From Gemmatimonadales bacterium (lineage in GTDB: Bacteria; Gemmatimonadota; Glassbacteria; GWA2-58-10): a stretch of 57,791 nt of DNA. A model generated the notes under the pieces. It worked only from the letters and a program-made list of their open reading frames with translations, searched no databases and had not been told where the DNA came from. This document shows, in pieces, positions 8,238-53,210 of the stretch (positions are counted from its first letter, which is position 1; every line of letters begins with the position of its first letter). A program made the position numbers and the translations under genes. Location: positions 1 to 57,791 of the forward strand of contig JAJRTS010000047.1 in the NCBI GenBank assembly GCA_024278175.1, given 5' to 3'.

Positions 8238-8340
8238 GCTGTCAAGGGTCAGCCGAAGGCTGATTCACATGCCCTTGACAGCGAGAAAAATAATAAATTT
8301 GATTTCGGGGCTGTTGAATAGTTTTTATCAACAGCCCTCC
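8238..8340 (+). repeat. Repeat family R2, copy 1 (compact double stem-loop)
   Basis: Stem 1 pairs GCTGTCAAGGG (8238-8248) with CCCTTGACAGC (8272-8282) and encloses a small hairpin TCAGCC-GAA-GGCTGA. Stem 2 pairs GGGCTGTTGA (8308-8317) with TCAACAGCCC (8328-8337). It sits in the divergent promoter region between namZ and the first lyase-like gene. ATTCACATGCCCTTGACAGC (8263-8282) recurs exactly, inverted, at 31044-31063. Confidence 0.8.
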
Positions 8341-8460
8341 TAATATATCCCCGCGAAGCCGCAATCGCCACAGCCCTTGCTCCCGGCGGCGATTGAATTA
8401 AATTCAGAATCAGCTAACCCTCAACCCGGCTTCAGGCCGGCGCCACACAACGGAGATCCC

Positions 8461-10269
8461 ATGAGATATTTTCCTGTCATGATGCTAAGCGCGATCACCC
8501 TGCTGGCCCTCGGCATGCCTTGGGCAAGCCGGGCCGCCACGCTGGAGAACCACCCACACTGGAAATACGGCGACAGCTTGCCGGGCCTGTATTACGAGGT
8601 GCTGGCCGCCAGTTTCGACAAGGCCGAGCGTTTTCAGGCCCCCGACGGCCGCTACCGTCCGCGCGTCCCGGCAACCACGCAGCAGGACGTGAGCGGCTTC
8701 AGCATGTATATCATGCAGTACATCTACGTCCCCGCCCTGCTCTACAGCGTGGAACACGAAGCCAACCCGCTCAAGGGAAGCAGGCGGGCGCTTGAATCGG
8801 CGCTCAGGGCCGGCGACTGGCTGGCCTCGGTAGTCAACGAAGAGGGCCGGTTCGTGCCCGTGGTCGACGGGGTCAAGGCCAATCCGCAGGATTCTCATCG
8901 CGCGCTCTATTGCTGGGCCGAGACTTACGGATTGCTCAAGGAACAACTTGGCCAGCAGCGAGAAAAAACCTGGCGGGAGGGCCTTCAGCGCGGAGGCAGC
9001 CGCTTGTTAAAGGATATGCGCCACCGGATGAACCGTCCGCGGCTCACCGCGCCGTTCCTGGGCACCAGCCCCAACCATTTCGGCCTGTGGTGCACCACTG
9101 TCAACCGGATCGGGATGCTCCTTGGCCTGGACGACTGGGTGAGCGACAGCCGCACGGCCCTGGCCCGGTTTGTGCGCGAAGTGACCCCCGGCGGCTACTG
9201 GGCGGAGCACGACGGTCCGACGATGATCTACGATTACCTCAATACGGCGGTGGCCGCCTACTACTGGCACTATTACAAAGATCCCGAGGCACTGAGAGCG
9301 ATCCGCGCCAACACGGATTTCCACGCCCACTGGACCACTCCCGACGGGATCGATATCGCCACGGTGGATCAGCGCAACCGTAACCATTTCACTGCCCGGG
9401 CGGGGTTCGGCCTGTTCAGTTTCTGCAATTTTCCAGCCGGACGGCGGCTGGCGAGGCTCAAGCTGCTCTCTGCCCTGGGCGATAAGCGCGACCCGTTCGA
9501 GACCCTGGGGCTTTCCGTGCTGGGGCGCCTGGCGCAGAACGCCCATTACCACACCGACGGCCCTGAAGCGACAATCCCGCAGCAGATGCCCTCCTACCGT
9601 CATACGCTCGACCGCCCGGCCGTGGCCCGCAAAAACGGCAACTGGGTCTACTCTATCAGCGCGCTCGTCTCTCCCGACAGCCCGCTCAACCAGTTCTTCC
9701 TAGACCGCACCATGCCTGTCAGTCTCTGGCACCAGCGCACCGGAGCCATTATCGACGGGGGCAACACCAAGCTTCAGCCCGAACTGGCCACGTTCGCCGC
9801 CGTGCGCGACGGCAAACTTGGCGCGCATCCGCTGGACGGCCTGCTGCGCGGAAGCTGGGACGGTGATACGCTCTGCGTGGCCGAGGAAGGGTTCTCCTGC
9901 CGGCTTACTTTCGTCACCGTTGACGACAACACGACCCTGATCCGCGCCAAAGCGGAAAAGACTTACAACTCTCAGAACACGGCCCTGCTTCAGTTACAAT
10001 TTCGCCTTCACGACGGCACTCCGGCCAGCATAAACGGCAAAAGCGCTACGCTCACCGCCAAAAAAATCGAGCATGAGGGCGCGCTGACTCTGGCCCATAA
10101 CGGCTGGAGCGCGGAGCTGCCCGAGGGTAGCAGGTTCGAGTGGCCGTTTTACACTTACTATCCCTACGGTGCGGTGCGTATCCCGGAGAACCTGCACAAC
10201 GCGGTGGGCCGGGCGGCGGTGAGCCTGCCCGAGGGCCAGTGGGTGGAAATTAAAATAACAGTGGACTGA
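8461..10269 (+). CDS. Secreted lyase-like protein A (unknown family, tandem paralogue)
   Basis: I do not recognise a named family. The 602-residue protein has a signal peptide (MRYFPVMMLSAITLLALG..., likely cleavage after SRAA). Residues about 30-420 are helical and rich in aromatic and His/Asn motifs, as in alpha/alpha-toroid polysaccharide lyases: SPNHFGLW, EHDGPTMIYDYLN, DQRNRNHFTARAGFGLF and QQMPSYRHTLDRPA. The last 200 residues look beta-rich, as in lyase C-terminal sandwiches. GGAGATCCC precedes ATG 8461. It is followed 30 nt later by a paralogue of the same length. A nearby GH88 gene, which acts on lyase products, supports a uronic-acid polysaccharide lyase role, but this is inference. 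Confidence 0.7.
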   Translation: MRYFPVMMLSAITLLALGMPWASRAATLENHPHWKYGDSLPGLYYEVLAASFDKAERFQAPDGRYRPRVPATTQQDVSGFSMYIMQYIYVPALLYSVEHEANPLKGSRRALESALRAGDWLASVVNEEGRFVPVVDGVKANPQDSHRALYCWAETYGLLKEQLGQQREKTWREGLQRGGSRLLKDMRHRMNRPRLTAPFLGTSPNHFGLWCTTVNRIGMLLGLDDWVSDSRTALARFVREVTPGGYWAEHDGPTMIYDYLNTAVAAYYWHYYKDPEALRAIRANTDFHAHWTTPDGIDIATVDQRNRNHFTARAGFGLFSFCNFPAGRRLARLKLLSALGDKRDPFETLGLSVLGRLAQNAHYHTDGPEATIPQQMPSYRHTLDRPAVARKNGNWVYSISALVSPDSPLNQFFLDRTMPVSLWHQRTGAIIDGGNTKLQPELATFAAVRDGKLGAHPLDGLLRGSWDGDTLCVAEEGFSCRLTFVTVDDNTTLIRAKAEKTYNSQNTALLQLQFRLHDGTPASINGKSATLTAKKIEHEGALTLAHNGWSAELPEGSRFEWPFYTYYPYGAVRIPENLHNAVGRAAVSLPEGQWVEIKITVD

Positions 10270-10299
10270 GCAGCACTCTATAATTACAGGGAGCAGGCA

Positions 10300-12111
10300 A
10301 TGAAATCGATTTCCTCCGCACTGGCGGCAGTTCTGCTGGCCGCTGGCATGTTACCGGCGGCCAGCCTGGACAACCATCCGCACTGGCGCAGTGAAAAACT
10401 GCCGGACCTTTACTACGAGGTACTCTCCCGCAGCCTGGAGCAGGCCCTGGAGCTCCAGGCCCCCGACGGCCGTTACCGCGTCGGGATGCCCGATCCGGCC
10501 GACCCCGGCGAGACCGGCTGGCGGATTACCTGGATGCAGTATATCTACGCGCCGGCGCTGCTCTATGTGACCGATAACGAGGCCAACAGCTTCCACGGCG
10601 ACAAGCACGCGCTGGCCTCGGCAATCCGCGCCGGAGACTATCTGGCCGGGATTGTGGAAGCCGACGGCAGCGTGCTGCCCCGGGTCAACGGGAAGCCCAC
10701 CAACCCGCTGGACGCCCACCGGACAATCTACTGCTGGACCGAGGCGTACGCCCTGCTTCGCCCACATCTGGACGCCGGGCGCGCCGAGCGTTGGGCGGAT
10801 GCCCTGCGGCGGGCCGGGAAACTGATCGCCGAGAGCGAAGTGTTCGGCAAAATTCACCGTCCCAAGTACACCTCGCCGTTCCTGGGATTCAGCCCCAACC
10901 ACCTCGGCCTGCGGGCCACCACTGTCTGGCGGATGGGGATGGTGCTCGGGATCCCGGAATGGGTTCAGCGGACCGAGCCGGCCCTCAAACGCTTCGTCAA
11001 CCACGTCCAGCCCGGCGGGTACTGGGAGGAGCACGACGGCCCCACCATGATCTACGATTACCTCAACGTGTCGGTGGCGGGTCTGCTCTGGCATTATACC
11101 TCCGACCCGGACGCCATGCGCGCGATGAAGCTCAACACGGATTTCCACACCCACTGGACCACGCCCGACGGGATCGATATCCACACCGTGGACCAGCGCA
11201 ACCGTAACCATTTCCGCCCGCGCGCCTCTTACGGACTGTTCGCGTTCAGCCATTTCCCGGCCGGCCGCCGCTACGCCCGCTTCCGCCTGCTTACCGCCCT
11301 GGGCGAGAGCGACAAACCGCTGCAGGCGATGGGTCTGGAGTCGCTGGCCCGGATCGCCCAGGACGCCTACTACCACTCCGCCGGCGAGGAGGCGACGATC
11401 CCCCAGCAGATGCCTTCCTACCGTCACACGCTCGACCGCCCGGCCGTGGTGCGCAAGCAGGGCGACTGGGTCTATTCGCTGAGCGCACTGGTGAGTCCGG
11501 AGCGGCCGCTGAGCCAGTTCTACCTGGACAGGATCGTGCCGGTAAGTCTCTGGAACAGCGCCACGGGTGCCATTATCGGCGGCGGCAACAGCAAGGGTCA
11601 GCCGCAGTTGGCCACGTTCGCCGTGCATCGCGCCGACGGCTCCTGGAGCTACCTTCCGCTCGACGCGCTGCTGGCCGGCTCAGCCGATGCGGACACGATG
11701 TACGTGGCCCACGAGGGTTTCAGCCTGAGCTTCACGTTCGATATCGAGGACGACTCCCGGGCGACTGTCCGCGCCAGAGCCGAATTTACCTACGAGCGTC
11801 CCGACACGGCCTATCTCCACCTGCCGCTGGTCATCCATGCCGGCGGAACGCTGGATGCGGGCGAGGGCCGCACCGTTACACTGGACAAAAAACCGCTGGA
11901 GCTTACAGGAGCGAGGCGGATAAGCCACAACGGCTGGAGCGTTTTTTTACCGGGCAGTGCCACTGTTACATGGCCAGTCTACACTTACAGTCCTTACGGC
12001 AACGTGCGCGTACCGGAGAATATCCACAACGCCCAGGCGGTGCTGTCCGTGCCGTTGAGTGTCGATGGCCAGTGGGTGGAAGTACGCTTCAGCATCGATG
12101 CAGACGAATAA
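10300..12111 (+). CDS. Secreted lyase-like protein B (tandem paralogue of A)
   Basis: The 603-residue protein is collinear with the upstream gene and more than half identical by eye; for example both contain QQMPSYRHTLDRPAV, EHDGPTMIYDYLN and DQRNRNHF. It has its own signal peptide (MKSISSALAAVLLAAGMLPAASL) and a GGGAGCAGGCA ribosome site. Same architecture: toroid-like helical region (about 25-420) and a beta-rich C-terminus ending WVEVRFSID. Conserved His, Asn, Tyr and Arg in PNHLGLRATT and RNRNHFRPRASYGLF are candidate catalytic residues. Tandem duplication with divergence suggests the two copies cleave different linkages or sulfation patterns. No carbohydrate-binding module is evident. 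A bidirectional terminator ends the unit. Confidence 0.7.
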   Translation: MKSISSALAAVLLAAGMLPAASLDNHPHWRSEKLPDLYYEVLSRSLEQALELQAPDGRYRVGMPDPADPGETGWRITWMQYIYAPALLYVTDNEANSFHGDKHALASAIRAGDYLAGIVEADGSVLPRVNGKPTNPLDAHRTIYCWTEAYALLRPHLDAGRAERWADALRRAGKLIAESEVFGKIHRPKYTSPFLGFSPNHLGLRATTVWRMGMVLGIPEWVQRTEPALKRFVNHVQPGGYWEEHDGPTMIYDYLNVSVAGLLWHYTSDPDAMRAMKLNTDFHTHWTTPDGIDIHTVDQRNRNHFRPRASYGLFAFSHFPAGRRYARFRLLTALGESDKPLQAMGLESLARIAQDAYYHSAGEEATIPQQMPSYRHTLDRPAVVRKQGDWVYSLSALVSPERPLSQFYLDRIVPVSLWNSATGAIIGGGNSKGQPQLATFAVHRADGSWSYLPLDALLAGSADADTMYVAHEGFSLSFTFDIEDDSRATVRARAEFTYERPDTAYLHLPLVIHAGGTLDAGEGRTVTLDKKPLELTGARRISHNGWSVFLPGSATVTWPVYTYSPYGNVRVPENIHNAQAVLSVPLSVDGQWVEVRFSIDADE

Positions 12112-12150
12112 AAAAGGCGCGGGAAGATATGCTCTTCCCGCGCCCTTGTT
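12110..12150. terminator. Bidirectional terminator between lyase-like B and GH88
   Basis: A perfect 12-bp stem (GGCGCGGGAAGA at 12116-12127, TCTTCCCGCGCC at 12133-12144) is flanked by six A residues on the left (a T-run for the minus strand) and CTTGTTTATT on the right. It serves both convergent units. Confidence 0.9.
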
Positions 12151-12175
12151 TATTCCCGTTCTCCGTTTTTACGCC

Positions 12176-13423
12176 TCAGGCCCCGATATCGCGCAGCAGC
12201 AGCAGCGCCTCGATATAATAGTAGTCCGCCCATGAGGTAGAACCCGCCACCCCTTTGCCGTTCCGCTTGCCGTAAACCGCGTCGGTCAGGATTCCGTGGC
12301 CGTCGGTGGTGAGATAGGATTCGCTCAGCGCACTGATAATCTTGAAAGCCGTATCGCGGTAACGCAACCGTTGTGCCGGCGTGGGGGTCAGCTTGGCCAG
12401 CTTGAGCAATCCGGCGGCGGCGATGGCCGCGGCGGCGGTATCTTTGCGATGGTCAGCTCCGGCGGGCAACTCGAAATCCCATACGGGCACACCGTCAGCG
12501 GGCAGGTTATCCACAAAGTAGTCGGCCACCCTGAGCGCCGCGTTGAGGAACAGTGTGTTCTGCTCGTGACTGTAGGCACTGGCCAGGCCGTAGATAGCCC
12601 AGGCCTGTCCCTGTGCCCATACGCTGGAGGCCTTGTAACCCCTGGTGGCGTATTTTTCGTTGTCGGCCAGTTCCGGTGTGCTTTCGCCGTGAATTGCACC
12701 GGTGGCGGGGTCAAAATCGGCCAGCTGCAGAATCCGGCCGTCGCCGCTGATCAGGTGCGCGACAACAAAAGTGGCATGGCTGCCGGCATGACGGGCGTAA
12801 TCGTTTTTACCGCCGGCCTCGCTGGCCCAGTAAAGCAGATCGAGGTCCATCAGGCTCTCGATAGCCAGCCGGCGCCCCAGCACGGTATCTCCGGCCTCGC
12901 CCCAGGCGGGGAAGAACCCTGCCGGTGTGAACCGTAAATTCACCTTCTCGGCCGCATCGAGCGCCACCTGCCGGTAATACTTGTTGCCGGTGATCTGGTA
13001 GGCCCTGACATAAGTGGGATAGAACACCATGCCCAGTCCGAAACGGCCGGCCTCGCCCTTGAGCGGCTCCAGGCCCGCCATCCAGGTAGAGGCCAGCTTG
13101 ACAGCGTCCGCATCCCCCGCGCCCTCGTAAATCAGCCAGAGCATACCGGGATAATAACCTTTCGCCCAGAAAAAATTGTCATCGTCAACCCATTCGTTGC
13201 CGGAAGTATGGGTCGGAAAACCTCCGTTCAGGCCGCCGAAAGCACGGTTGGCCTGCGTACCGGCAAGCTGTATCTGATCGGTGTAGAGCCGTCCTGTTTC
13301 AGTTTCCAGGCGCGTGGGTTTGTATCTTAATACCGAACAGGAAGCAGACACTAGCAGGCAAATAATGACGATGGCCGGCGGGACAAGGACCGATAGCCGT
13401 TGCAGGACTGATGGAAGTTTCAA
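12176..13423 (-). CDS. Glycoside hydrolase family 88, unsaturated glucuronyl hydrolase
   Basis: GH88 enzymes open 4,5-unsaturated uronic acids at the non-reducing end of oligosaccharides produced by polysaccharide lyases. The signature segments are present: AKGYYPGMLWLIYE, RRLAIESLMDLDLLYWA (catalytic Asp region), SVWAQGQAWAIYGLASAY, WDFELPAG...KDTAAAAIAAAGLL and STSWADYYYIEALL. Length is 415 residues from the chosen TTG at 13423, which is preceded by GAGAGGGG; a longer start at TTG 13462 lacks such a site. The N-terminal hydrophobic segment ends in VSASC, an imperfect lipobox, so it may be a periplasmic lipoprotein. It lies 43 nt downstream of a sensor gene on the same strand and converges with the two lyase-like genes. 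Confidence 0.88.
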   Translation of the reverse strand: MKLPSVLQRLSVLVPPAIVIICLLVSASCSVLRYKPTRLETETGRLYTDQIQLAGTQANRAFGGLNGGFPTHTSGNEWVDDDNFFWAKGYYPGMLWLIYEGAGDADAVKLASTWMAGLEPLKGEAGRFGLGMVFYPTYVRAYQITGNKYYRQVALDAAEKVNLRFTPAGFFPAWGEAGDTVLGRRLAIESLMDLDLLYWASEAGGKNDYARHAGSHATFVVAHLISGDGRILQLADFDPATGAIHGESTPELADNEKYATRGYKASSVWAQGQAWAIYGLASAYSHEQNTLFLNAALRVADYFVDNLPADGVPVWDFELPAGADHRKDTAAAAIAAAGLLKLAKLTPTPAQRLRYRDTAFKIISALSESYLTTDGHGILTDAVYGKRNGKGVAGSTSWADYYYIEALLLLRDIGA

Positions 13424-13466
13424 TTTTCCCCTCTCGGCTGGTGTATTGAGATTGGAATACAAGCTG

Positions 13467-14438: not shown

Positions 14439-14768
14439 CTTGCTCCATCCCGCAACCGCCAGGGACGTAAACCGCTACCGGCTGCACCATTGACCCCGGC
14501 GTGCGATGGGGTTAGAATTGGGGTATAACTGACTGTTCAGTCTTAAGATACCTCCGGCAACAACGTGGCGCAAGCGCTTTAGGTATCCCGGCTGAGTGAA
14601 AGCGCACTCCGGACAAACTTTGGAAACATTTTGCCCCAGGAACTGTATTAAACGGGTACGCCGGCGTAAAAGCCGGGCCGGCTGTTGTTACTGAACTAAT
14701 AAAACAGGGGATGTCCGTTGGATAACGGTCCGGTTCCCGGCACTACGATACAGCGAGGGTATCCTGCC
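14439..14768. other. Divergent intergenic region (sensor gene / large fusion gene)
   Basis: About 330 nt separate the two divergent starts, so promoters for both must lie here. I see a short palindrome GACTGTTCAGTC near 14531 and GC-rich inverted motifs near 14660-14690, but no convincing -35/-10 pair. No gene is supported. Confidence 0.4.
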
Positions 14769-18353: not shown

Positions 18354-18383
18354 TTGCCTCCCGGCAGAGCAGAGCCTGTTATC

Positions 18384-18423
18384 CCCCGGCCCCTTTTAAC
18401 ATGGCGGCCGGGGTTTGTTTTTT
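18384..18423 (+). terminator. Intrinsic terminator after the fusion gene
   Basis: CCCCGGCC (18384-18391) pairs with GGCCGGGG (18406-18413), followed by TTTGTTTTTT. Confidence 0.85.
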
Positions 18424-18562
18424 CGGGCCGCTGCCGTCGATACCTGCTCTGATGCTTGCGAATTGAAAAACGAACGGTTAAAATAAACAATCATCATAAC
18501 CGGCAGAATACCACAGACACTGTTGAGCGATACATTTCACACCAGCCACGGAGGTATCCCCG

Positions 18563-19246: not shown

Positions 19247-19323
19247 ACCCGGCTCACTAACCGGGGCTCTCCGCCCGCCGCACTCTACCCGCGCGGCGGA
19301 CTGCCCGTTCGAGCTTCATCACC

Positions 19324-19359: not shown

Positions 19360-19376
19360 GTTAGCTGGAGGACACT

Positions 19377-21826: not shown

Positions 21827-21844
21827 TTCTACTTCCCTCCGCTA

Positions 21845-24941: not shown

Positions 24942-25272
24942 AACGCCCCCTGGCCGATGGCCCGGAGGCGCTGCGAAAAAACGAATCGAACCCCACTTGC
25001 CACGTGGTATCGCGCTTAGCCCGCATTATTCATAAAAAATATCGCCTACTTTCTATAACTTTTGGCAATGAAGCGAGTTAACGCAGAATCACTTTGTCCT
25101 GCAAAAACGGATATTATTTATTGCCAAAGAAAAACAAGCTGGCGAAATTTTACCTTCGGCTCGCCTGCTTTGTCAGATTAGCTGCGCCATCAGTGGATTG
25201 CGGTATTGAGCAGTACAGCGGCGCCACTGCTTCCTTGCTCTCGAACAAATCAGGCTTCGTGAATAATCCGGG
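24942..25272. other. Intergenic region upstream of pepA
   Basis: No gene is supported. It contains a long-range inverted pair TTTGGCAAT...ATTGCCAAA (near 25062 and 25118) and AT-rich tracts. It should hold the pepA promoter, but no clear -35/-10 pair is seen on the minus strand. Confidence 0.4.
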
Positions 25273-25785
25273 TTAGGGAAATCTTGAAATGATCTCTCTC
25301 TTCTTCCTGTTGGCCTCTTCGGACTGCTCGCTCTTGCGGTCCGCCAGGTCGGTAAAAGCCTGCTTCTCGTTCTCGTAGAAAATATTGTCGGCGCTGGTGG
25401 TGTAAAACTCAGCCTGCTCCTTCAACGCGGCGGACAGAAAATCGAGCACCTGGATAGGGTTGAAAAAGCTCTCGAACAAGTCCTTCAACTTATCGGCGGG
25501 ATAGAACTTTTCATTGCGTGCGGCCTGCATTTCCCTGATATAGTCGTCCAGGGATTTTTCTTCGATCTCCGCGGCGGACTGCTCGTCCTCCAGACCGGTC
25601 AGCAAAGCCTCCAGCTTGTCCAGGTCCTCGCCGACCATCTCCTGCAACTGGATGATAAACTTCTTGAGGTCACTCTCTTCCTTTTCGATCTTGCCGGAGA
25701 ACTGCTCCAGAAAACTCTGTCCGTCCTTCTCAACCTGGATCGCAAGCTTGATGAACTGGATGTCCTGATGCCTATTCTCGCTCAT
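25273..25785 (-). CDS. Ferritin-like (rubrerythrin-fold) protein lacking iron ligands
   Basis: 170 residues, almost wholly helical and acidic. IQFIKLAIQVEKDGQSFLEQF and LSAALKEQAEFYTTSADNIF resemble helices 1 and 3 of the rubrerythrin ferritin-like fold, and AFTDLADRKSEQ sits where EE-x-x-H would be. The expected His is absent and the Glu pattern is incomplete, so a di-iron centre is unlikely. A structural or degenerate ferritin-like role is inferred. Repeat R2 copy 3 lies upstream, between this gene and the VWA gene. Confidence 0.6.
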   Translation of the reverse strand: MSENRHQDIQFIKLAIQVEKDGQSFLEQFSGKIEKEESDLKKFIIQLQEMVGEDLDKLEALLTGLEDEQSAAEIEEKSLDDYIREMQAARNEKFYPADKLKDLFESFFNPIQVLDFLSAALKEQAEFYTTSADNIFYENEKQAFTDLADRKSEQSEEANRKKREIISRFP

Positions 25786-25963
25786 ATCTCGATCTGCTCC
25801 GCTTCTGAAAGTCCGACGGTTTATGCTGCTGCAGCAAACGTACCCGGCGTCGCAAGGGAGCGCCGCCTTTCCCCGGGTCCAAGCTTCGGCCTGCCGGAGA
25901 ACTTACAAGATACCCGGCTTAAAAGGCTTTGTCAACAACCCTTGCGTGAGTTAGGCCTGGAGA

Positions 25964-26132
25964 GGCGCTGAAATAAAACGTTCAACGCCCTTAAATTAAT
26001 AATTTCGCTCGGTTGGTTGTCAATGGCAAGCCAAGCCGTTCTTTTTGCCGATTCTGCTATTCGTTTTATTTCAGGCAGTTAGATTACCCGGCACCTGTTT
26101 CGGCCAGCAACAGCGGGGAACGGCCCTTGACA
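25964..26132 (-). repeat. Repeat family R2, copy 3 (inverted orientation)
   Basis: Outer arms GCCCTTGACA (26123-26132) and TGTCAATGGC (26018-26027) pair at 9 of 10 positions. Inner arms CCGTTC (26036-26041) and GAACGG (26118-26123) extend them. Stem 2 is GGCGCTGAA (25964-25972) with TTCAACGCC (25981-25989), one G-U pair when read on the minus strand. It shares GGGCGTTGAACGTTTTATT with copy 2, inverted. Confidence 0.8.
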
Positions 26133-26169
26133 ACCTTTATTCCCATTCTGCGTATATGTCAACACGCTT

Positions 26170-28386
26170 CTATGCCAGCGCCTTTCGCCGGCGAAGAGTC
26201 CACTCGGCGGCCAGCAGCGCCACGATCATCCAGTAAATCCAGCTCTCCCGCGCCAGGCCGATCTGCCGGGTAACCATCTCCCGCACCTCGCCGACGGGTT
26301 GCAGCTCTTCCGCCAGTTCCCCGGGGCTAATAATCCTGCCATCAGTGGAGGCCGCCAGGGCGACCAGCCCGAGGCTATCGGGCCGGACCTCCGCCAGCTC
26401 CGGGCTGAACTGCTCCACCGCCAACTCGCCTCCGGCCCAAAGCGTGTCCGCGCCTGAGCTCGCAAGCGCTCCGTAAAAATATACTCCCGGCGGCAGAACG
26501 CCGAAATCGAGCGCGAAACCATCCCGCTCGCCCGCCGCCGCCCGCGTGGTTCGCAATGTCGCCACCGTGTCGCGCACCGTGGCGCTGCCGGCTCTCCACA
26601 GCGAGGCCTCGATAACGATCTCACCGTCGTCCAGCCCGTCGCGGATCTCCCCGGATAAGCTCACCGGCTCTCCCCTGCCGAACACTTCCCGTCCTGGCTC
26701 CAGCACCAGCGGCGATCTCCGCTCGGCCGCGGTCAACCATCCGGCCAGCTCCCGCCACATGTTGAAATACAGCGCCGCGTCTTCGGGGTCACCCAGTTGC
26801 CGCTGCATGTGCCAGCGCCAGAGGCCCTGGGCCGTGATCAGCGCGCTGCGCACCCCGGCCGAGGGCCGCACCGCAAGCACCGGCGCTCCCTCGCCGGCCA
26901 GCGGGCCACGGCTGCCCGCGTGAGCCAGGATTTCCGCGGAACGCACCGGCTTCAGACCACGATAAACAGTTGTAACCGGCGGCAGATCGTCGATAACTCC
27001 ACCGCCGCCCAGCGCCCCGAGCACACCGTAACGTCCGTTGGTATACAGGCGGCAGGCCGTGGCGGGAGCCTCCAGCGGTATAATGGCCCCGGAGGAGACG
27101 GGCAACACTCCGGCCAGCTCCGGGGGCAAAACGGCAGGATCGAACCGTACCGTGGGCCAGAGGACCAGCCCCAGAGCACCCGCAGCGGCCCTTTGCGCCA
27201 GCCGCCCGAGGAACCGCCGGCCCAGTTTCGCGATATTCCCGTGGAGCAACACCAGCGCGGCGTCCTCAAGCTCCGCCGCTGCCGGAAGGCTGCCCGCGCT
27301 GAACACCCCTTGCCGGACGCGCCTGTGAAGCGTGCTTCCGTTCTCTCCCTCCAGTATCAGCAGCGTGCTGACATCCCAGTCGTCCACGGCGGACAGGGCA
27401 CGGCCGGTGAACGTCAGGTCCCAGTCCGGCGAGTTGCTGATCAGCAGAAACGTGCGGCGGCTCTGTCGCACGTGCAGGCGGTGCAGGCGGCGGTTGTTGA
27501 GTTCACTGAATTCCCCGGCCAGCGGGCGCAGCGAGGCCTCCAGCCAGTAGCTGCCGGCCGCGGGCGCGTCAAAGCTGATCCGCTCCGCGCTCAGCGATGC
27601 TCCGCCGGAGGGCGGCTGCAGCCTGCGCTCCGCCACCTTGCGGCCATCGAGAAAAATATCCACCGCAAGCGTCGCACGGGCCTCGCCGGAGAGAGTGAGC
27701 TCCAACTCAACCTGCCCGTCCTCGTAAGCGGGACTGATTTGCTCGATACCGGTCAGCGCCGGATCGCTCCCATCGGGACTGCCGCCGAGCGGCACAACGT
27801 CGACAGCAACGCCGCTATCCGGTAACGCGGCCAGCACGCTGCCACCCGCGTTGACCCGCCCGTCGCTGACCAGCACAACCCTGTCCCATCCCGGTCCCGG
27901 CGCACTCAGCAGCTTCTCCAGCGCACCCGCCAGGTCGGTGCGGTCCTCCAGCAGCCCGGCGGCCAGGCCATCGATACTCTCCAGTCGGGCCAGCTCCCTG
28001 CCGAACGTATATATTGCCGCCACATCCCGGCCCGAGATCCATTGCTCCACCAGCGCCCGCGCCGCTTCCAGTCTGTCGGGACCGCCGGGCGAACCGGTTT
28101 GCGGCAGCAGCATGCTGGCAGAGCGGTCGACCAGCAGCGCCACCCGCTCGGGGCGGCTGCGCCCACTGCCGAGGGCCAGCAGCGGCTCCAGCGCCAGCAT
28201 GCCGAGCAGGACAACCACCAGGGAACGCAGAGTGGCGAGCAGGATTTTATAGCCAGTGGGCAGGGGGGGACTGGTGCGACGGTAGGTCCACCAGACCACG
28301 AGCAGCACGACTGAGGCCAGTATGACCACGGGCCACATGGTAAAGCGCTGAAAGCTCAGTACGATCTCACTCAAACGTGTCTCCAT
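26170..28386 (-). CDS. Membrane-anchored VWA domain protein (BatA-like, with class I GATase-like region)
   Basis: 738 residues. Two N-terminal membrane helices (about 17-34 and 48-72) precede a von Willebrand factor A domain with the MIDAS motif VALLVDRSASM (first Asp near 87) and VVLVSDGRVN. Beta-rich linker domains and a region resembling the glutamine-amidotransferase fold (about 310-480) follow, then a last membrane helix (ESWIYWMIVALLAAEWTL). This architecture is seen in FCB and planctomycete genomes, often near MoxR ATPases, but none is present here. Function is unknown; a periplasmic sensor or chaperone-like role is a guess. No clear ribosome site precedes ATG 28386. Gap to folC is 14 nt, consistent with an operon. 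Ends in TAG. Confidence 0.75.
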   Translation of the reverse strand: METRLSEIVLSFQRFTMWPVVILASVVLLVVWWTYRRTSPPLPTGYKILLATLRSLVVVLLGMLALEPLLALGSGRSRPERVALLVDRSASMLLPQTGSPGGPDRLEAARALVEQWISGRDVAAIYTFGRELARLESIDGLAAGLLEDRTDLAGALEKLLSAPGPGWDRVVLVSDGRVNAGGSVLAALPDSGVAVDVVPLGGSPDGSDPALTGIEQISPAYEDGQVELELTLSGEARATLAVDIFLDGRKVAERRLQPPSGGASLSAERISFDAPAAGSYWLEASLRPLAGEFSELNNRRLHRLHVRQSRRTFLLISNSPDWDLTFTGRALSAVDDWDVSTLLILEGENGSTLHRRVRQGVFSAGSLPAAAELEDAALVLLHGNIAKLGRRFLGRLAQRAAAGALGLVLWPTVRFDPAVLPPELAGVLPVSSGAIIPLEAPATACRLYTNGRYGVLGALGGGGVIDDLPPVTTVYRGLKPVRSAEILAHAGSRGPLAGEGAPVLAVRPSAGVRSALITAQGLWRWHMQRQLGDPEDAALYFNMWRELAGWLTAAERRSPLVLEPGREVFGRGEPVSLSGEIRDGLDDGEIVIEASLWRAGSATVRDTVATLRTTRAAAGERDGFALDFGVLPPGVYFYGALASSGADTLWAGGELAVEQFSPELAEVRPDSLGLVALAASTDGRIISPGELAEELQPVGEVREMVTRQIGLARESWIYWMIVALLAAEWTLRRRKALA

Positions 28387-30968: not shown

Positions 30969-31009
30969 CGCGCCTCCAAAAAACTCGTACAATTTATGAT
31001 TATTTTACA

Positions 31010-31063
31010 GGGGCGTTGAAAAAAATGTCGTCATGAGAATTTGGCTGTCAAGGGCATGTGAAT
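31010..31063 (-). repeat. Repeat family R2, copy 4 (partial)
   Basis: GCTGTCAAGGGCATGTGAAT at 31044-31063 is the exact reverse complement of 8263-8282 in copy 1. GGGGCGTTGA at 31011-31020 is one arm of stem 2. The matching arm of stem 2 and the left half of stem 1 are missing. It lies between the radical SAM gene and the DegT gene. Confidence 0.7.
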
Positions 31064-40839: not shown

Positions 40840-40858
40840 CCGGTAAAAAATCTCCATG

Positions 40859-45313: not shown

Positions 45314-45438
45314 GACCGGCCCGTAAAGATGTGAAATTGCCTCTGGCGGCGTGCCCGAAAAAAACACGCTGTTAAAGGGGTGCCTGAAAAACGGTGCGCC
45401 GGTGATTATTCTAATCACCCGGCGGCAAAAAAACAACC

Positions 45439-45614
45439 CGAGACCTTTGATTTAATCGAAAGAATTGAAAGAATAGTGAGGGGGAGAGACAAAACCTTTT
45501 AAAAAAGGTTCTTTTCTCTCCCCCTCACGCTCCCCCTCACTTTTTCCAAAATTTTTTATCAAGGGGCACCTCTTTCGGTCAGATCATGTGGTTACAATTA
45601 ACAACCCCTGAATT
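45439..45614 (+). repeat. Dispersed structured repeat R1, copy A
   Basis: About 176 nt, roughly 80 percent identical to 57509-57672. The core is GTGAGGGGGAGAGA (45476-45489) paired with TCTCTCCCCCTCAC (45515-45528), with an inner AACCTTTT/AAAAGGTT stem. A third, partial copy of the right arm follows. Conserved flanks include GAGACCTTTGATTTAA and TTTCGGTCAGATCATGT. It lies between rimO and the giant exoprotein gene. Confidence 0.85.
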
Positions 45615-45735
45615 GCCTTTTGATACACAAAAATGAGTGCGCTGAAAAACTTCCTCATCACAATTCAGTCGGCCAATTTTTCAAAGGTCTCAACCCGTAA
45701 AACCGTGGCGGCGGCCCTCCGGGTGCTTACCGCCG

Positions 45736-47082: not shown

Positions 47083-47203
47083 ACGGGCGGAAGCACGTTC
47101 ATCTATAATTATGCTACTCTCTTTCTCTATCCCGAATTATTCACCAAGCAGGTAAGCCGAAAGTAACGATAGCGACGGCTTGTTTTTTTGGCAAAATTCA
47201 ACC

Positions 47204-48127
47204 TCAACGATTGTCCACAAACAGCGCCACCAGCGCACACTTGAGCCAGAGATCGAGGAAAATGCCCAGCACGGCCCCCAGCGGCACGCCTACAATCTGC
47301 ATCGCCAAGCCCAGCGGGGCGTTCCAGCCCTGGACAAACTTACCGCCCAGCGAGAACGGCGCGGCCACACTCCAGCTCAGTACGCCCAGCAGCAGCGATG
47401 CCGCCAGGTAGCAGACAACCAGCCTCCAGCGCTCTTTAAAAAACCGCCAGGCCCGCCACAGCGCCGCTCTCCCGTGATGGCCCTCCACTCTGGCCGCCGC
47501 CAGCGAGAACCGGTACCAGAGCATCGCGATCCAGCAGCAGAACACCGTAAGCACCCCGCTGACAACGGCCAGCGCAAGGCAGAGCAGCACCCACGGCGTA
47601 AGGAAACTCAGCTCACCGGTAACCAGCCCGGCCAGATTGAAAGAGAGCACGATAACCGGCAACAGCAGGATAACCATCGGCAGCAGCGGCAGCAGCGATA
47701 CCAGAGTGGTGATAGTCACTCCGGGGACGAACATCCTGCCGCCCTCCTCGAAAAACGACGAGGCGCTCACTTTGCCTACGCCGCCGTTTCCGGCCGCCAG
47801 CCCCCTGACAGCCACTCCGGTCAGCGCGCCGTGGTAGAACAGCAGCACCAGCAGGAAAATCCCGCAGCCGACAGTAAACCCGGCCAGCGAGAACAGGATC
47901 AGCGGAGCATGGCCCAGGATAAACGCCGACGGATCGCTGAACAGCAATCCCGGCTCGAAATAGCGCCCGCTCAGCCACCAGAACAACACCGGCAGGCCCG
48001 TGCCGCCCAACAGCAAAACCGGGGCGGTGGACGAGTAAAGAAACGCCCATCCCAGCAGCCAGATGTTTTTTCCGATCAACACCGCGGAGCGGCGCAGGGA
48101 TGCGACAACAAGTTCCACCGTGTTCAT
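47204..48127 (-). CDS. Polytopic membrane protein of unknown function
   Basis: 307 residues with about six membrane helices and small soluble loops (RGLAAGNGGVGKVSASSFFEEGGR; ARVEGHHGRAALWRAWRFFKERWR). The layout resembles DUF975/DUF4013-like membrane families, but no diagnostic motif is seen. The ATG 48127 overlaps the TGA of the alkD-like gene (ATGA), so they are translationally coupled. Confidence 0.7.
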   Translation of the reverse strand: MNTVELVVASLRRSAVLIGKNIWLLGWAFLYSSTAPVLLLGGTGLPVLFWWLSGRYFEPGLLFSDPSAFILGHAPLILFSLAGFTVGCGIFLLVLLFYHGALTGVAVRGLAAGNGGVGKVSASSFFEEGGRMFVPGVTITTLVSLLPLLPMVILLLPVIVLSFNLAGLVTGELSFLTPWVLLCLALAVVSGVLTVFCCWIAMLWYRFSLAAARVEGHHGRAALWRAWRFFKERWRLVVCYLAASLLLGVLSWSVAAPFSLGGKFVQGWNAPLGLAMQIVGVPLGAVLGIFLDLWLKCALVALFVDNR

Positions 48128-48816
48128 TTGCGACTCCCGGACAGGATCAGCCGTTGCTGCACCTTGCCTCCCGTCAACTCGCGAAGAGCGCCGTTGGCCA
48201 CCCAGCGTTCGGATTTTCCGCCGGTTTCGGCCAGGGCAACCGCCAGTTCGATAGCCCGGGCGTTGAGTTCCATGTTACGTTTGCCGATCTGCCGCAACGC
48301 CCAGTTGACAGCCTTGCTGACCAGCGGGCGCTCATCGGCGGCCCCGCGGCGGACCAGGGTCAGCAGCTTGTAAAATTCGGCGTCGGAGGCATTCTTGTCG
48401 TGGACCGCCAGCCAGGCTGTCATCGCGAACCCCGCCCGCTTGATATAGAGTTCCTCGCGGCCGCACCACTGCCTGGTTTTCTCCCAGGCCGGCCCGGCCT
48501 TGCGAAACAAACTGCCGCAGGTGGTATCGCAGAGCGCCCAACTGTCGAACTGGGCGGCCCAGCGTTCCATCAGCGGCCCGTCCACCCGCCGCGGGTCGGC
48601 CAGCAGGGCGGCCAGCAGACGGCTCTCGTGAATCCCGGCGTCCCAAAGCTCCAGCGCCAGTTCGTGGCTGATGCCAAGCTGACGGGCCAGGGTTCTGAGG
48701 GCGGCCATCGAAACACCCAGCGCGCGCTCCGGCCTGATCCCGTAGCGGGCCATGCCCTCGACATTTGCCGCGCTGCCCATCGTTTCCAGCTTGCGGAGAA
48801 TCTGCCGGCAGTTCAA
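48124..48816 (-). CDS. AlkD-like DNA alkylation repair protein
   Basis: 230 residues of helical HEAT-like repeats. VSMAALRTLARQLG, ALELWDAGIHESRLLAALL, WAAQFDSWALCDTTCGSLF and IKRAGFAMTAWLAV are typical of COG4912 (AlkD family) enzymes, which excise N3- and N7-alkylpurines without base flipping. The Asp and Trp of FDSWALCD correspond to the catalytic-site region. Overlaps the following membrane-protein gene by 4 nt and follows the lolA gene by 56 nt. Confidence 0.85.
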   Translation of the reverse strand: MNCRQILRKLETMGSAANVEGMARYGIRPERALGVSMAALRTLARQLGISHELALELWDAGIHESRLLAALLADPRRVDGPLMERWAAQFDSWALCDTTCGSLFRKAGPAWEKTRQWCGREELYIKRAGFAMTAWLAVHDKNASDAEFYKLLTLVRRGAADERPLVSKAVNWALRQIGKRNMELNARAIELAVALAETGGKSERWVANGALRELTGGKVQQRLILSGSRK

Positions 48817-48872
48817 ATGCGCTCCCGGTTAAGTTTCCCTTATTCAGTTGCCGTTGATAATCCTCTGCACTC

Positions 48873-49523
48873 TCATGGGCCGGTGCTCCCGGCCGGAGAG
48901 TCGGCCTCCAGCACCTGGGCGTTGGCCGGCGGCGTAAAGCTGAACAACTCCGGGGCCGGTGAGGTATCCGTGCTCGCCACGCCCAGGTCGAAAGTGTTGA
49001 AATTCCCCGTCTCGTCCAGGTAGCGCACGGCGCGGGTGGCGAACGTGAGTCTGTCCACCCAGGCGCGCAGGGAACGATAATAGGCGTTACGGTTTTTGGG
49101 TTCCAGCTCAAGCACGTAACACTCGGCCCCACCCCGGCTTGCCGTTCCCAGCAGGCGGCCGCCGAACCGCTCGGCCATCCTGCCGCCCAGCACGTAGACC
49201 GGCACATCGCCCCCACCGCCCTGCATCGATGCGCGAAGAACCTGGGGAATTTCCTGCCGGGGCATGTAGAACCACCAGTCGGTCCCGTCGGCGACCAGCA
49301 ACTGACCCGCCGGCTTGCGGTATTCCAACCTGATCAGGTTCGGCTTGAGAAAATAGAGCGTGCCACTGAAGGTTTCGCTCTTTTCCAGGGCGGGGACCTC
49401 GACCACCTGGGTAAAAGAAGCGCGCAGGCTGCCGATAGACTCATAGTAGCGGTCGATCCCGGCCAGCACGGACTGGAAATCAGCGGCCCGCCCGGTGGCG
49501 GGAAACAGCAGGGCCGGAACCAT
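48873..49523 (-). CDS. lolA: LolA-like outer-membrane lipoprotein carrier, apparent N-terminal frameshift
   Basis: Periplasmic chaperone that moves lipoproteins from the inner to the outer membrane. 216 residues in this frame, with FQSVLAGIDRYYESIGSLRASFTQVVEV, GTLYFLKPNLIRLEYRKPAGQLLVADGTDWWFY and a C-terminal beta-rich lobe. The frame begins MVPALLFPATGRAADF, which is only the end of a signal peptide. The missing start (MNFLTVYGHKLLTAF) lies in another frame from ATG 49570 and would join at a run of six T residues (A6 on the plus strand, 49524-49529). One extra T would give a perfect signal peptide. Sequencing error, slippage or a real mutation are the options. 128 nt separate it from ftsK. 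Confidence 0.82.
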   Translation of the reverse strand: MVPALLFPATGRAADFQSVLAGIDRYYESIGSLRASFTQVVEVPALEKSETFSGTLYFLKPNLIRLEYRKPAGQLLVADGTDWWFYMPRQEIPQVLRASMQGGGGDVPVYVLGGRMAERFGGRLLGTASRGGAECYVLELEPKNRNAYYRSLRAWVDRLTFATRAVRYLDETGNFNTFDLGVASTDTSPAPELFSFTPPANAQVLEADSPAGSTGP

Positions 49524-49651
49524 AAAAAAGCCGTTAAAAGCTTATGGCCGTAAACGGTAAGAAAATTCATCGGCAGAGGATGTCCGGCAAGTAGAGTTGT
49601 GGTAACATGTCCTGAATCTCTCCAACCGGTTTGTCGCCCGGAGGGAGCGGT

Positions 49652-52015
49652 TTATTCGATGCCAAAACCGGCCAGGTCCTCAGCGGCGATCAGCACCTCG
49701 CGCGGCTTGCTGCCATCGGGCGGGCCGACTATCCCGGCGCGCTCGAGCTGATCGACAATCCGGCCGGCGCGGGCGTAGCCCACCTTGAGCCTGCGCTGGA
49801 TCAGCGAGGTCGATCCCTGGTCGTGGCGCACCACCAGCCTGGCCGCCTCGCCGAACAACTCGTCACGGTCCTCGGCCTCTTCCATGTCCTCCAGCAGTTG
49901 CGGGGTCAGGCTGTCGAGAATACCGTTGCGCGGCCCCGGGCCGCCGTCCTCGTCATCTTCAGCCTCCCCGTCGGCGAACCACGGTTGTTCGCGCCAATGG
50001 GCGGCCAGTCCTTCAGCTTCATCGCTGGAGAGGTACGCGCCCTGGATCCGCACCGGGTCGCTCTGGCCGGCCGGGACAAACAGCATGTCGCCGTTGCGCA
50101 GCAATTGCTCGGCCCCGCTGACATCGAGAATCGTGCGGCTGTCGATTTTGGAGTAGACCTGGAAGCTGAGGCGGCTGGGGAAATTGGCCTTGATCAGCCC
50201 GGTGATGACATCGACCGAGGGCCGCTGGGTGGCTACCACCAGATGGATCCCCACCGCGCGGGCCATTTGCGCCAGCCGCACCAGCCCGGCCTCGATCTCG
50301 TTCTTGACGTCGCTGCACATCAGGTCACTGAGCTCATCGACCAGGATGACGATATAAGGCATCGGGTCCAGCTCATCCTGCAGCACGCCGTCCGGTCCCT
50401 TGACCGGCTTGCCCGAGGCCAGCTTTACGTTGAAGTCCTCGATGTTGCGCACGCTGTTACGCGAGAGCAGGCGGTAGCGGCGCTCCATCTCGGCGGTGGC
50501 CCACTTGAGGATGCCGGCTGCCTCGCGGGCCTCTGTCACCACCGGGTGCAGCAGGTGGGGGATGTCGTTGTAGAGGTTGAGCTCGATCATTTTCGGGTCG
50601 ATCATCAGCATCCGCACCTGGTCCGGCCCGAAATTGAACAGGATGCTGGCGATAATCATGTTCATGCAGACGCTCTTGCCGCTGCCGGTGGTACCGGCGA
50701 TCAGCAGGTGCGGCATCCGGGTCAGGTCGGCCACCCTGATCCGTCCCTCCAGGTCCTTGCCCAGGCCGATGGGCACGTGCTGGCTGCTGCGGCGGAAATC
50801 GTCGGTGGAGAACACATCGAGGGCCGAGACCATCTCCAGCACGGGATTCGGCAGCTCGACGCCCACCACTCCCTTGCCGGGGATCGGAGCCATGATCCGC
50901 ACTTTTTTGGCCCGCATGGCCATCGCCAGATCATCGGCCAGCGCGGCGATCCGGTTCACTTTCACTCCGGGCGCGGGCTTGATTTCGAACGTACTCACCT
51001 GGGGGCCGCGGGTGATATTGCCCAACTCGCCCTCCACATTGAAATCGGCCAGCTTGCTCATCAGCACGCGGCCTATCCGCTCCAGCTCCTCGCGGCTGAC
51101 CACGGCGCCGGAGCCGCTCCTGTCCTCCAGGATATCCAGCGGCGGCAGTTCGTAGCCGCCCTCGCCGGTGGCGCCGGACATGCGCGGTTCCGCCTGGCCG
51201 CCCGCTGGTTCAGGACGGTTATTTTCCGCATCATCGTGCCCCGTTTCTTCCACGGAGGGCGGCTCCTCGTCCATAATCCCCAGGTCGAACTGGAAGTCCT
51301 CGACCGGCTGCTCGGCCGGCATTTCGTAGCGCGGCTCCGGCCCGGCGTCATCTGGCTCCTCGGGTTCGTGGATTTCCCCGGCTGTTTTTTTCTTCCCGCG
51401 TTCAGTTTTTTTCTTCTTCTCCGGACGGTCCGAAACAGCCTTGAGGGCCGAGGCCGCCAGTGCGGCCATCAGCGACGCGGCTTTGGCTCCCCAGTCGGCG
51501 AGAGTGCGGAACGAGAGGCCGGAGTAAAAAGAAAGAAACAGCAGCAGCGCCGCCGCCACGGCCACGTAGGCACCCACCGGTCCCAGGCCCACGCTCAGCA
51601 ACCCCGCCAGCCAGTTGCCCAGCCGGCCCGCGCTCCAGTCCAGCGAACCGGCGGCAGGCTCACCGCCCAGACCGATCAGGATCACGGCCCCCAGGCCCAG
51701 CACCAGGGTGTAAACAGTGATTCGCAGATAGACTCTGGAACCACGGCCGCTGAACAGACGCCAGCCCCAGCACACCAGCATGACCGGCAACGCATAGGCC
51801 AGCACACCTGCCAGGTCTTTGAGCGATTCGTTGATAAACTGGCCCAGCAGGCCCACCAGGTTACGGTAGCCCTGGTCCGTCTGAGAACTGAATCCGGCGA
51901 GCAGCGCGGCGGGCAGCATACTGATTGCGCAGAGCAGACTCAGCGCAATCAGCAGGATTCCCAGTGCTTCCTCGCGCAGATCGCCTTTTCTCCCTGTTGA
52001 TGACTTACGGGCCAA
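49652..52015 (-). CDS. ftsK: DNA translocase FtsK/SpoIIIE
   Basis: 787 residues. Four N-terminal membrane helices (about 19-180) anchor it at the septum, then an acidic linker (about 195-300), and the motor from about 330. The Walker A is GTTGSGKSVCMN near residue 440, Walker B is in MLMIDPKMIELN and VILVDELSDLM. The C-terminal gamma domain (LIQRRLKVGYARAGRIVDQLERAGIVGPPDGSKPREVL) recognises KOPS DNA. It drives chromosome segregation. It begins the ftsK-lolA-alkD-membrane unit. Confidence 0.95.
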   Translation of the reverse strand: MARKSSTGRKGDLREEALGILLIALSLLCAISMLPAALLAGFSSQTDQGYRNLVGLLGQFINESLKDLAGVLAYALPVMLVCWGWRLFSGRGSRVYLRITVYTLVLGLGAVILIGLGGEPAAGSLDWSAGRLGNWLAGLLSVGLGPVGAYVAVAAALLLFLSFYSGLSFRTLADWGAKAASLMAALAASALKAVSDRPEKKKKTERGKKKTAGEIHEPEEPDDAGPEPRYEMPAEQPVEDFQFDLGIMDEEPPSVEETGHDDAENNRPEPAGGQAEPRMSGATGEGGYELPPLDILEDRSGSGAVVSREELERIGRVLMSKLADFNVEGELGNITRGPQVSTFEIKPAPGVKVNRIAALADDLAMAMRAKKVRIMAPIPGKGVVGVELPNPVLEMVSALDVFSTDDFRRSSQHVPIGLGKDLEGRIRVADLTRMPHLLIAGTTGSGKSVCMNMIIASILFNFGPDQVRMLMIDPKMIELNLYNDIPHLLHPVVTEAREAAGILKWATAEMERRYRLLSRNSVRNIEDFNVKLASGKPVKGPDGVLQDELDPMPYIVILVDELSDLMCSDVKNEIEAGLVRLAQMARAVGIHLVVATQRPSVDVITGLIKANFPSRLSFQVYSKIDSRTILDVSGAEQLLRNGDMLFVPAGQSDPVRIQGAYLSSDEAEGLAAHWREQPWFADGEAEDDEDGGPGPRNGILDSLTPQLLEDMEEAEDRDELFGEAARLVVRHDQGSTSLIQRRLKVGYARAGRIVDQLERAGIVGPPDGSKPREVLIAAEDLAGFGIE

Positions 52016-52478
52016 TCTTCGCGTCTCCGCTTAAGCTTTGCAAAAGAACGTCAAGAGAACAAGCCAGACCTGGCACCCGGCATGACTCAAGATAAAGCCG
52101 CGCATATGCCTTGTCAATCCGGCGCTTAGCAGCCGACTACCGCCACGACTGAACCAGGGGCGGGGCAAAATGGCCATTGTGTTACCCGGCGGGTCACAAC
52201 AAGCAACCGTCGTGACTGTACGATTAACAGATTTTTGACAGACGATGATGGATTTTGCGCACTCCGCCTGCTCGAATCCGAACAACGGGCAAGCTGCTTG
52301 TCATCCGGCAAAAGCAAGCCACACAGGGATTCAAAAAAATATTGACATTATCCGCCAAGAACTTGCGCCGCGGAGCGGCCGCCGCCGGTAGCCGCGCAAC
52401 AATTTTGAGCACGTTTCTTGCATTTATGCCGTTACTGATACCAAAGAGAGGAAATGCTTCTTTCAGGGAGAAAGTGAT
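52016..52478. other. Intergenic region between ftsK and the small plus-strand gene
   Basis: About 460 nt without a supported gene; weak frames on the minus strand lack start signals and protein-like composition. It must hold the ftsK promoter and that of the small gene. TTGACATTATCC near 52344 is a possible -35 element but has no good -10 partner. Confidence 0.4.
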
Positions 52479-52643
52479 ATGGGCAACACTCTACTGTCTA
52501 AAGAGCAGATCAGCCAACTCGTCAATTCGTGGCACAGCGCCCCGGCCGGCTCGCAGGAGCAGAAACTGATCGAGGACCTGTTCCTGATCACGGAAACTCC
52601 GATGCCGGTTCGCCAGGAAAAGCGAGACGTGGTGGCTGCCTGA
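52479..52643 (+). CDS. Small 54-residue protein of unknown function
   Basis: ATG 52479 is preceded by CAGGGAG with 8-nt spacing. The product starts MGNTLLSKEQISQLV and ends with RDVVAA, helical and charged with no membrane segment. It stands alone on the plus strand and converges with the coiled-coil gene, whose stop is 17 nt away. No family recognised. The good ribosome site and codon use suggest it is real. Confidence 0.5.
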   Translation: MGNTLLSKEQISQLVNSWHSAPAGSQEQKLIEDLFLITETPMPVRQEKRDVVAA

Positions 52644-52660
52644 ACCGTGGCCGGCGCCGC

Positions 52661-52981
52661 TCAGCCGGCCTGCTCAATCATCGTCCGCACCTCGTCCAGC
52701 CTTTCGGTCAAGCCCGGAATATCGAACACCGCCTCGTAACGTTCCAGCACATCGGCCAGATCCAACAGCACAACCGCGCCACCGAGCAGCTCGACCTTGC
52801 CCTCGGAAGCCTCAATGTTCCGTACCAGACGGGACACCAGCGATTTGATACTACCGGCCAACTCGCATTTTTCAGCCGCCTCGGCGCTGTCGGCTCCCTC
52901 AATCCGGATTTTTTCCAGGCAATGCTCCGCCTGCTCCAGCTCGTCGAGGATTTGCTCGTTTTCCTCGAACAGACTTGTCAT
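52661..52981 (-). CDS. Small coiled-coil protein of unknown function
   Basis: 106 residues, acidic and helical: MTSLFEENEQILDELEQAEHC, a central LVSRLVRNIEASEGKVELLGG, and DVLERYEAVFDIPGLTERLDEV. The ATG 52981 follows AGGGAGAAGAGGC. A longer reading up to 53155 is not accepted because those codons fall within repeat R2 copy 2. No signal peptide or membrane segment. No family recognised. Confidence 0.62.
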   Translation of the reverse strand: MTSLFEENEQILDELEQAEHCLEKIRIEGADSAEAAEKCELAGSIKSLVSRLVRNIEASEGKVELLGGAVVLLDLADVLERYEAVFDIPGLTERLDEVRTMIEQAG

Positions 52982-53041
52982 GCCTCTTCTCCCTGCCGCT
53001 TCTAGAAGCGTGTTAAAAATACGAAGAATGGGAGTAACGGG

Positions 53042-53210
53042 TGTCAAGGGCCGTTTCCCGCCAGGCCGGCCCAACACGGTGCAAGCGATGCAACTGCCGG
53101 GTATAAGATAAGTAACAGGATCAGCAAAAGAAACGGCTTGCCTTGCCCTTGACAACCCGACCAGACGAAATATTTCATTCGTGGGCGTTGAACGTTTTAT
53201 TGCAACGCCC
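53042..53210 (+). repeat. Repeat family R2, copy 2 (full-length)
   Basis: Outer arms TGTCAAGGGC (53042-53051) and GCCCTTGACA (53145-53154) are a perfect 10-bp pair, extended by CGTTTC (53052-53057) with GAAACG (53130-53135). Stem 2 is GGGCGTTG (53183-53190) with CAACGCCC (53203-53210). GGGCGTTGAACGTTTTATT is shared with copy 3. It lies upstream of the coiled-coil gene. Confidence 0.82.

Follow-up and report, generated by a model that had tools for sequence, protein, structure and literature searches.

A high-copy, very probably mobile intergenic repeat with nested inverted repeats from the uncultured bacterial family of Candidatus Glassbacteria

Known miniature elements and the Glassbacteria repeat

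Correia/NEMIS, ERIC and RUP are high-copy, short, palindromic mobile repeats of bacteria. The repeat family analysed here, which resembles them in these general traits and differs from them in its host and in its duplication (theirs is of TA), is represented in the window, i.e. the whole 57,791-nucleotide stretch of contig JAJRTS010000047.1 in assembly GCA_024278175.1 of a Gemmatimonadales bacterium. Prokaryotic miniature inverted-repeat transposable elements (MITEs) are described in PMC10969869 as shorter than 500 bp, with terminal repeats, a duplication that wanes with age, stable predicted stem-loops and an intergenic position. The repeat fits this picture, and that of Coxiella QMITE2 in the same source, by description rather than by compared sequence; what sets it apart is that its inverted repeats are nested, the inner one with a conserved bulge on one side, and that only one of its ends carries a hairpin. 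The 4-bp motif YTAR is the duplication motif of IS5 according to PMC10359306. The repeat shares with the insertion sequences (ISs) and MITEs of the IS5 group the 4-bp YTAR duplication, imperfect short terminal repeats and gene-free intergenic copies. It differs from them in that the searches revealed neither a cognate transposase nor an IS with its ends, and in that its inner inverted repeats of about 19 bp are conserved at least as well as its outer ends. A literature search in which subscription papers were scarcely covered returned no published description of this repeat family and, judged from the ranking of the results, apparently no paper that joins Glassbacteria and miniature inverted-repeat elements.

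A preliminary description of the window had reported four intergenic double stem-loop repeats and had left a mobile non-autonomous element, a structured RNA and a regulatory leader as possibilities. The repeats end in inverted repeats and are flanked by a 4-bp duplication of the target, and some of their sites are empty in a related genome; they are therefore very probably a MITE-like, non-autonomous transposon, about 208 bp long, with two-part ends, a transposase supplied in trans and insertion at YTAR.

Copies, ends and target sites

The arm TGTCAAGGGC has 210 matches in the 4.18-Mb genome that holds the window (G000), 105 on each strand, versus 12 (9 and 3) for its reversed control, so that there are many further copies, as the preliminary description required. 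The 100 of these places that were listed fall into 66 loci, 34 with a pair of matches roughly 103 nt apart and 32 with a single match, which scales to approximately 140 loci for the 210 matches. A consensus search gave at least 40 copies and one piece (40 of 188 candidates being scored), and the right end TTTCAACGCCCCTYTA occurs 89 times with at most one mismatch, versus once in the control. Among 61 genomes (its own and 60 relatives) four carry the element. A covariance model built from 46 copies, including both full copies of the window, likewise found it in four of 200 genomes of the phylum, under stricter filters by which weak matches are lost, and all four are among the six listed as belonging to the same family; the repeats are thus restricted to one bacterial family among the genomes searched. 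A pattern scan of species genomes, which may omit the window's own genome, returned at least 60 stretches, all from the metagenome-assembled genome (MAG) Candidatus Glassbacteria Zod_Metabat.976. This MAG is one of the four genomes with the element, here called G003, as 300-nt probes from 10 of 15 G003 loci match its stretches exactly over their whole length. No match to the element pattern was found in viral contigs.

Alignment of copies from the whole genome defines a full element of about 208 bp between 4-bp flanks, a length found in 58 long-type copies of G000 that leaves no room for a transposase gene; counted end to end with both duplications, most copies measure 214–219 nt. The left end is MAGCGTGTTGAAA (MAGCGTGTTGAAAWAT in this alignment), followed by a spacer and by the inner inverted repeat, of which the arm GGYTGTCAAGGGCCGTTTC and its counterpart GAAACGGCTTGYCTTGCCCTTGACARCC enclose a drifting loop of about 72 nt; past the loop the order is GAAACGG, CTTGYCTT and GCCCTTGACARCC. 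A second spacer, with a fairly well-kept TTTCA, precedes the terminal hairpin GGGCGTTGAA...TTCAACGCCCCT. The right terminus reads TTTCAACGCCCCT, and the terminal inverted repeats are imperfect (MAGCGTGTTGAAA versus AGGGGCGTTGAAA). The window contains two full copies, one short-type copy and one right-end fragment, as follows.

53002–53216, + strand: full-length copy; covariance model E 1.2e-43 (itself a model row); used in the alignments of 19 and 30 rows
53040–53157, + strand: inner inverted repeat (hairpin 1) of this copy, with the conserved bulge CTTGCCTT on the 3' side
53183–53210, + strand: terminal hairpin (hairpin 2) of this copy, GGGCGTTG...CAACGCCC; its 3' arm forms the right terminal repeat
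25957–26173, − strand: full-length copy; covariance model E 1.6e-45 (itself a model row)
8199–8342, + strand: short-type copy with the same kind of ends; covariance model E 1.9e-17 (outside the model rows)
31006–31063, − strand: right-end fragment of the short type, with 3' arm, spacer and right terminal repeat
26170–28386, − strand: open reading frame (ORF) of 738 amino acids, with its stop codon inside the left YTAR of the 25957–26173 copy

The stems of the preliminary description are present: 53042–53051/53145–53154 and 53183–53190/53203–53210 pair perfectly, 8240–8249/8271–8280 are accompanied by the second stem 8308–8316/8329–8337, 26018–26027/26123–26132 pair with one mismatch, and a single arm lies at 31046–31055. 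The 20-nt exact match that it mentioned joins 8263–8282 and 31044–31063, and the sequence GGGCGTTGAACGTTTTATT is indeed common to the copies at 25964 and 53042. Its four copies exist, but their extents were too short, as the full unit includes a left end that had not been seen. They are not all alike either: 53002–53216 and 25957–26173 are full units, 8199–8342 is a short subtype and 31006–31063 a fragment. The G-U pair assigned to its third copy (its numbering is ambiguous) is found instead in the 8240–8280 copy (T8249/G8271), and the 25957–26173 copy has a T26024/C26126 mismatch and no G-U. Hairpin 1 of the short-type copy is only 41 nt long, TGTCAAGGGTCAGCC GAA GGCTGATTCACATGCCCTTGACA; two G002 loci (L063 and L072) show the same architecture, and G002 has mostly this type (six of seven model hits are 135–147 nt long). 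In the window search the fragment gives no covariance-model match at E ≤ 1, and the fourth match (E 0.06) is the 8199–8342 palindrome read on the opposite strand.

Two further forms were observed. A variant of about 331 nt in G003 (L241 154–484; L240) has an extra piece of about 110 nt, with further palindromes, before the terminal hairpin. Solo palindromes of 36–41 nt (L087 214–253, L097 2384–2419, L106 2243–2283, L122 7998–8038, L229 2634–2671) resemble two right ends with YTAR-like flanks and are possibly minimal mobile units.

The duplication was assessed on 118 of 125 assembled full copies, those with both ends readable (five had no readable end and two were dropped by a flank-length test). 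The bases at −6 to −3 on the left equal those at +1 to +4 on the right in 35 of the 118, where 8.5 are expected, a score reached in none of 20,000 permutations. The duplication has a fixed length and the consensus YTAR, and the matched pairs are direct, not inverted, repeats (CTAA/CTAA 13, TTAG/TTAG 7, TTAA/TTAA 5, CTAG/CTAG 4). The flanking Y and R positions also agree between the two sides more than composition explains (z 3.9 and 4.8), which together with the 4-mer permutation test above shows a duplication of 4 bp. The 53002–53216 copy is flanked by CTAG and CTAA, a YTAR-type duplication with one mismatch. At four places (L051, which is the same as L124, L059, L105 and L122) head-to-tail neighbours share a single YTAR. 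Mismatches per duplicated position amount to 0.42 in G000 and 0.36 in G003, figures inflated by boundary shifts.

Syntenic comparison with G001, which belongs to another species of the same genus, revealed empty sites. Nine loci were compared, and BLAST coordinates are the better evidence, since base-level alignments were untidy at three of the six loci aligned. Homology runs uninterrupted through the site at L123 2364–2580 (G001:C27) and L123 7022–7240 (G001:C6), and at L108 8773–8987 only 20 nt are unaligned in G001 (C35) versus 230 in G000. The homologous flanks are 212 nt closer in G001:C9 for the 25957–26173 copy of the window, and 209 nt closer in G001 for L108 11940–12153. The empty site is thus direct at three of the nine loci and follows from interval length at two more. 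No copy was detected (blastn, E ≤ 0.05) in the 72 kb of G001:C9 collinear with the window.

Genes predicted with a home-made codon-usage gene finder place the copies between genes: in a set of 67 G000 copies the overlap with a predicted gene never exceeds 45 nt. By this rough prediction the three larger window copies are intergenic, as previously claimed (the fragment was outside that set), except that the left YTAR of the 25957–26173 copy, ATAG on the − strand, holds the TAG that ends ORF 26170–28386. As YTAR contains TAA or TAG, the element can hit a stop codon without damage to the gene; in 12 of the 67 copies, this one included, the adjoining gene ends with the TAA or TAG within YTAR, a count given without a random-model expectation. 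Neighbouring genes are arranged −− around 26 copies, ++ around 18, −+ around 11 and +− around 6 (unresolved for 6).

Conservation of the inner arms and rival explanations

RNAalifold folds the repeat with 26 pairs, six of which show paired changes, in agreement with the stem covariation expected from the preliminary description. Changes on both sides of a pair occupy 29 cells versus 9.8 in shuffled alignments (0 of 500 shuffles reach this number; slid controls give 1–7), although 18 of the 29 reflect one C-G/U-A difference that mostly splits G000 from the other genomes, the cells not being independent. Of the double changes, 18 are paired and 4 unpaired. An earlier set of G003 copies had been found via the arm itself, so copies found by their right end were used instead, some of which also belong to the earlier set. 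Fifteen of 22 G003 right ends had both arms (up to 6 substitutions in 19 positions and 9 in 28 were allowed, which misses heavily decayed copies), and 14 were kept after L229 was dropped as badly fitting; the others were two left-cut copies with both arms, two that were too short, two of the 331-nt variant, which have both arms further in, and one without arms. In the 14 copies, changes affect 2 of 531 arm positions, 273 of 1664 in loop and spacers and 22 of 144 in the left end. In 24 G000 copies found by their right end, private changes amount to 25/807 in the arms versus 137/1621 in loop and spacers (p 1.6e-7). Arm-to-arm gene conversion was considered as the cause of the low arm rate, but the data speak against it: no private paired double change is seen in these copies, and only one copy, the badly aligned L056 2061–2285, has unpaired double changes.

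Fifty G000 copies were grouped by mismatches in their duplication (12 with none, 15 with one, 20 with at least two, three without a value). The 12 copies with an exact duplication differ at 10/455 arm positions (2.2%), 4/132 left-end positions (3.0%) and 252/1420 positions of loop and spacers (17.7%), compared with 48/752 (6.4%), 18/220 (8.2%) and 562/2354 (23.9%) in the 20 copies with two or more mismatches; without one badly aligned copy the latter values are 5.7%, 7.2% and 23.2%. The arms of G000 copies thus decay with age (p 0.0008, or 0.003 without that copy). Loop divergence is already high in young copies, and most of it therefore predates insertion, while the arms, like the left end, start low, so that they are constrained in the lineages that jump. 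This age-dependent decay suggests that the inner arms are probably needed for mobility, and we read them as the inner parts of two-part transposon ends.

The conservation of the arms bears on a different explanation, in which selection maintains the copies after insertion for an effect of the hairpin on transcripts, as a terminator, a protector of mRNA 3' ends or a small RNA, the repeat being a domesticated structured RNA. This explanation looked strong at first, given the near-invariant arms described above, and the paired changes also speak for it. It would further agree with the 5' arm of G003, which goes only from 0.7 to 0.9% with age (arms overall from 0.7 to 0.4%, loop from 16.3 to 18.4%, in a set chosen by an exact 3' arm), and with the somewhat smaller rise of G000 arms (3.5–4.2 points) than of loop and spacers (5.5–6.2), for which partial constraint after insertion is possible. 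The decay of G000 arms after insertion weakened it. Furthermore, wobble-compatible changes show no strand preference (41 plus versus 47 minus; the two G003 sets overlap and some copies are counted twice), the 53002–53216 copy folds weakly relative to shuffles (on the + strand not better than they do, z −0.92; on the − strand z −2.49), no Rfam family matches the window at gathering score, and copies are found in both orientations and in all four gene arrangements. The structured RNA of the preliminary description is thus supported only indirectly, by the covariation and strong conservation of the arms; an RNA role that keeps the copies in place appears improbable, and nothing points to one specific to a strand. 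A cis-regulatory leader or outward promoter, suggested by the TTGACA that faces outwards in both arms, is hardly credible: copies do not sit at a set place relative to gene starts, and a scan around the 53002–53216 copy, the sole one so treated, gave no sigma-70-like site.

Other kinds of mobile element were also weighed. TA at both ends of most copies at first favoured a MITE derived from the IS630/Tc1-mariner group, with TA alone being duplicated, and G000 has one degenerate PF13358 match (L084). This reading was dropped once the flanking Y and R were seen to match as well, and no PF13358 locus has these ends, so that it is now very unlikely. The terminal hairpin, and the solo palindromes made of right ends, recall REP/BIME-like or IS200/IS605-type palindromes moved by a single-strand (Y1) transposase. 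These systems are not known to make a target duplication, whereas the repeat has a 4-bp direct duplication, exact in 35 of 118 copies, and such an origin is extremely unlikely.

The putative partner transposase and points of doubt

For the MITE-like transposon that we favour, the proposed mechanism is that a transposase supplied in trans would recognise two-part ends, composed of the outer short terminal repeat and the inner inverted subterminal repeat of about 19 bp, mobilise the element and insert it at a YTAR tetranucleotide, which would be duplicated; the gene for this partner would be bounded by AGSGYGTTGAAA and YTAR. From the duplication alone we infer a transposase of the IS5 type, and other families with 4-bp duplications are possible sources. 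The arms keep pairing through paired changes and the outer left end drifts in G003, for which reason we also considered that the transposase might mainly recognise the inner arms with their conserved one-sided bulge, and might do so when these are folded (as a cruciform or single strand) and not when they form a duplex; this proposal is improbable.

Several observations weigh against the transposon interpretation. The duplication is mismatched in 83 of 118 copies, and CTAG/CTAA (7) is as common as TTAG/TTAG. Four of the nine empty-site comparisons are not clean: G001 is shorter by 138 nt at L123 3656–3873, by 84 nt at window 8199–8342 and by 79 nt at 31006–31063, and its interval is longer at 53002–53216. 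The left end of G003 is nearly as variable as the loop (22/144 versus 180/1020) and the arms are not, so that a role of the arms in mobility fits only if the left end is loosely read; in G000, taken alone, the increase of left-end changes in older copies falls short of significance (p 0.07; 0.15 once the badly aligned copy is left out). Lastly, no transposase with these ends was found in a search that left aside Y1, mutator-type and other families. PF13358 has three matches in the six genomes G000–G005, PF01609 has 15 in G000–G003, and PF05598 has five there, four of them in elements already counted under PF01609; when the ends of all these loci were scanned, no gene was seen to lie between a pair of such ends, a weak absence given that the MAGs are incomplete. 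In G003 one PF01609 gene (L200) has a complete copy of the repeat some 0.5 kb away, on one side only of the 2.3-kb locus. No long element with both ends appears among 38 listed pairs (several places being listed twice), and 14 intervals of 709–2610 nt, inspected by eye without a family search, contain no transposase-like open frame; intervals of 343 nt, of more than 3000 nt and, apart from the variant described above, of 331 nt were not read. An IS5-family element (L205/L242; G000:C76, about 58 kb) was rejected as partner, its ends GAGACCTTTGAAATA being only partly similar and its transposase split.

Other repeats and structures were also observed. A second repeat family of about 110–135 nt, 86–91% alike and containing a GTGAGGGGGAGAGAC... 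palindrome, is present at 45468–45602 and 57528–57661 of the window. The segment at about 25016–25276, near the 25957–26173 copy, is also an intergenic repeat and gives more than 20 match rows in G003; one more high-copy repeat, L108 13759–14024, has dozens of matches in G001. A terminator-like hairpin, AAAAAGGGACCGGAAACGGTCCCTTTTT, stands at 53276–53303, just past the 53002–53216 copy, and two tandem paralogous stretches, spaced by about 1824 from start to start, span 8520–12080.

The work brings to light a mobile repeat family of high copy number in the uncultured family of bacteria to which Candidatus Glassbacteria belongs, and accounts for several otherwise puzzling intergenic stem-loops. 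The element is of an otherwise ordinary kind, and its unusual trait is the very good preservation of its inner hairpin arms. If these were recognised as a folded structure, this would be a target-duplicating element with mobility dependent on an internal hairpin. The family also calls for caution more generally, as covariation and strong arm conservation in a dispersed repeat can stem from mobility and not from an RNA function, and the comparison of arm decay with the decay of the target duplication is a test that can be used on other such repeats.

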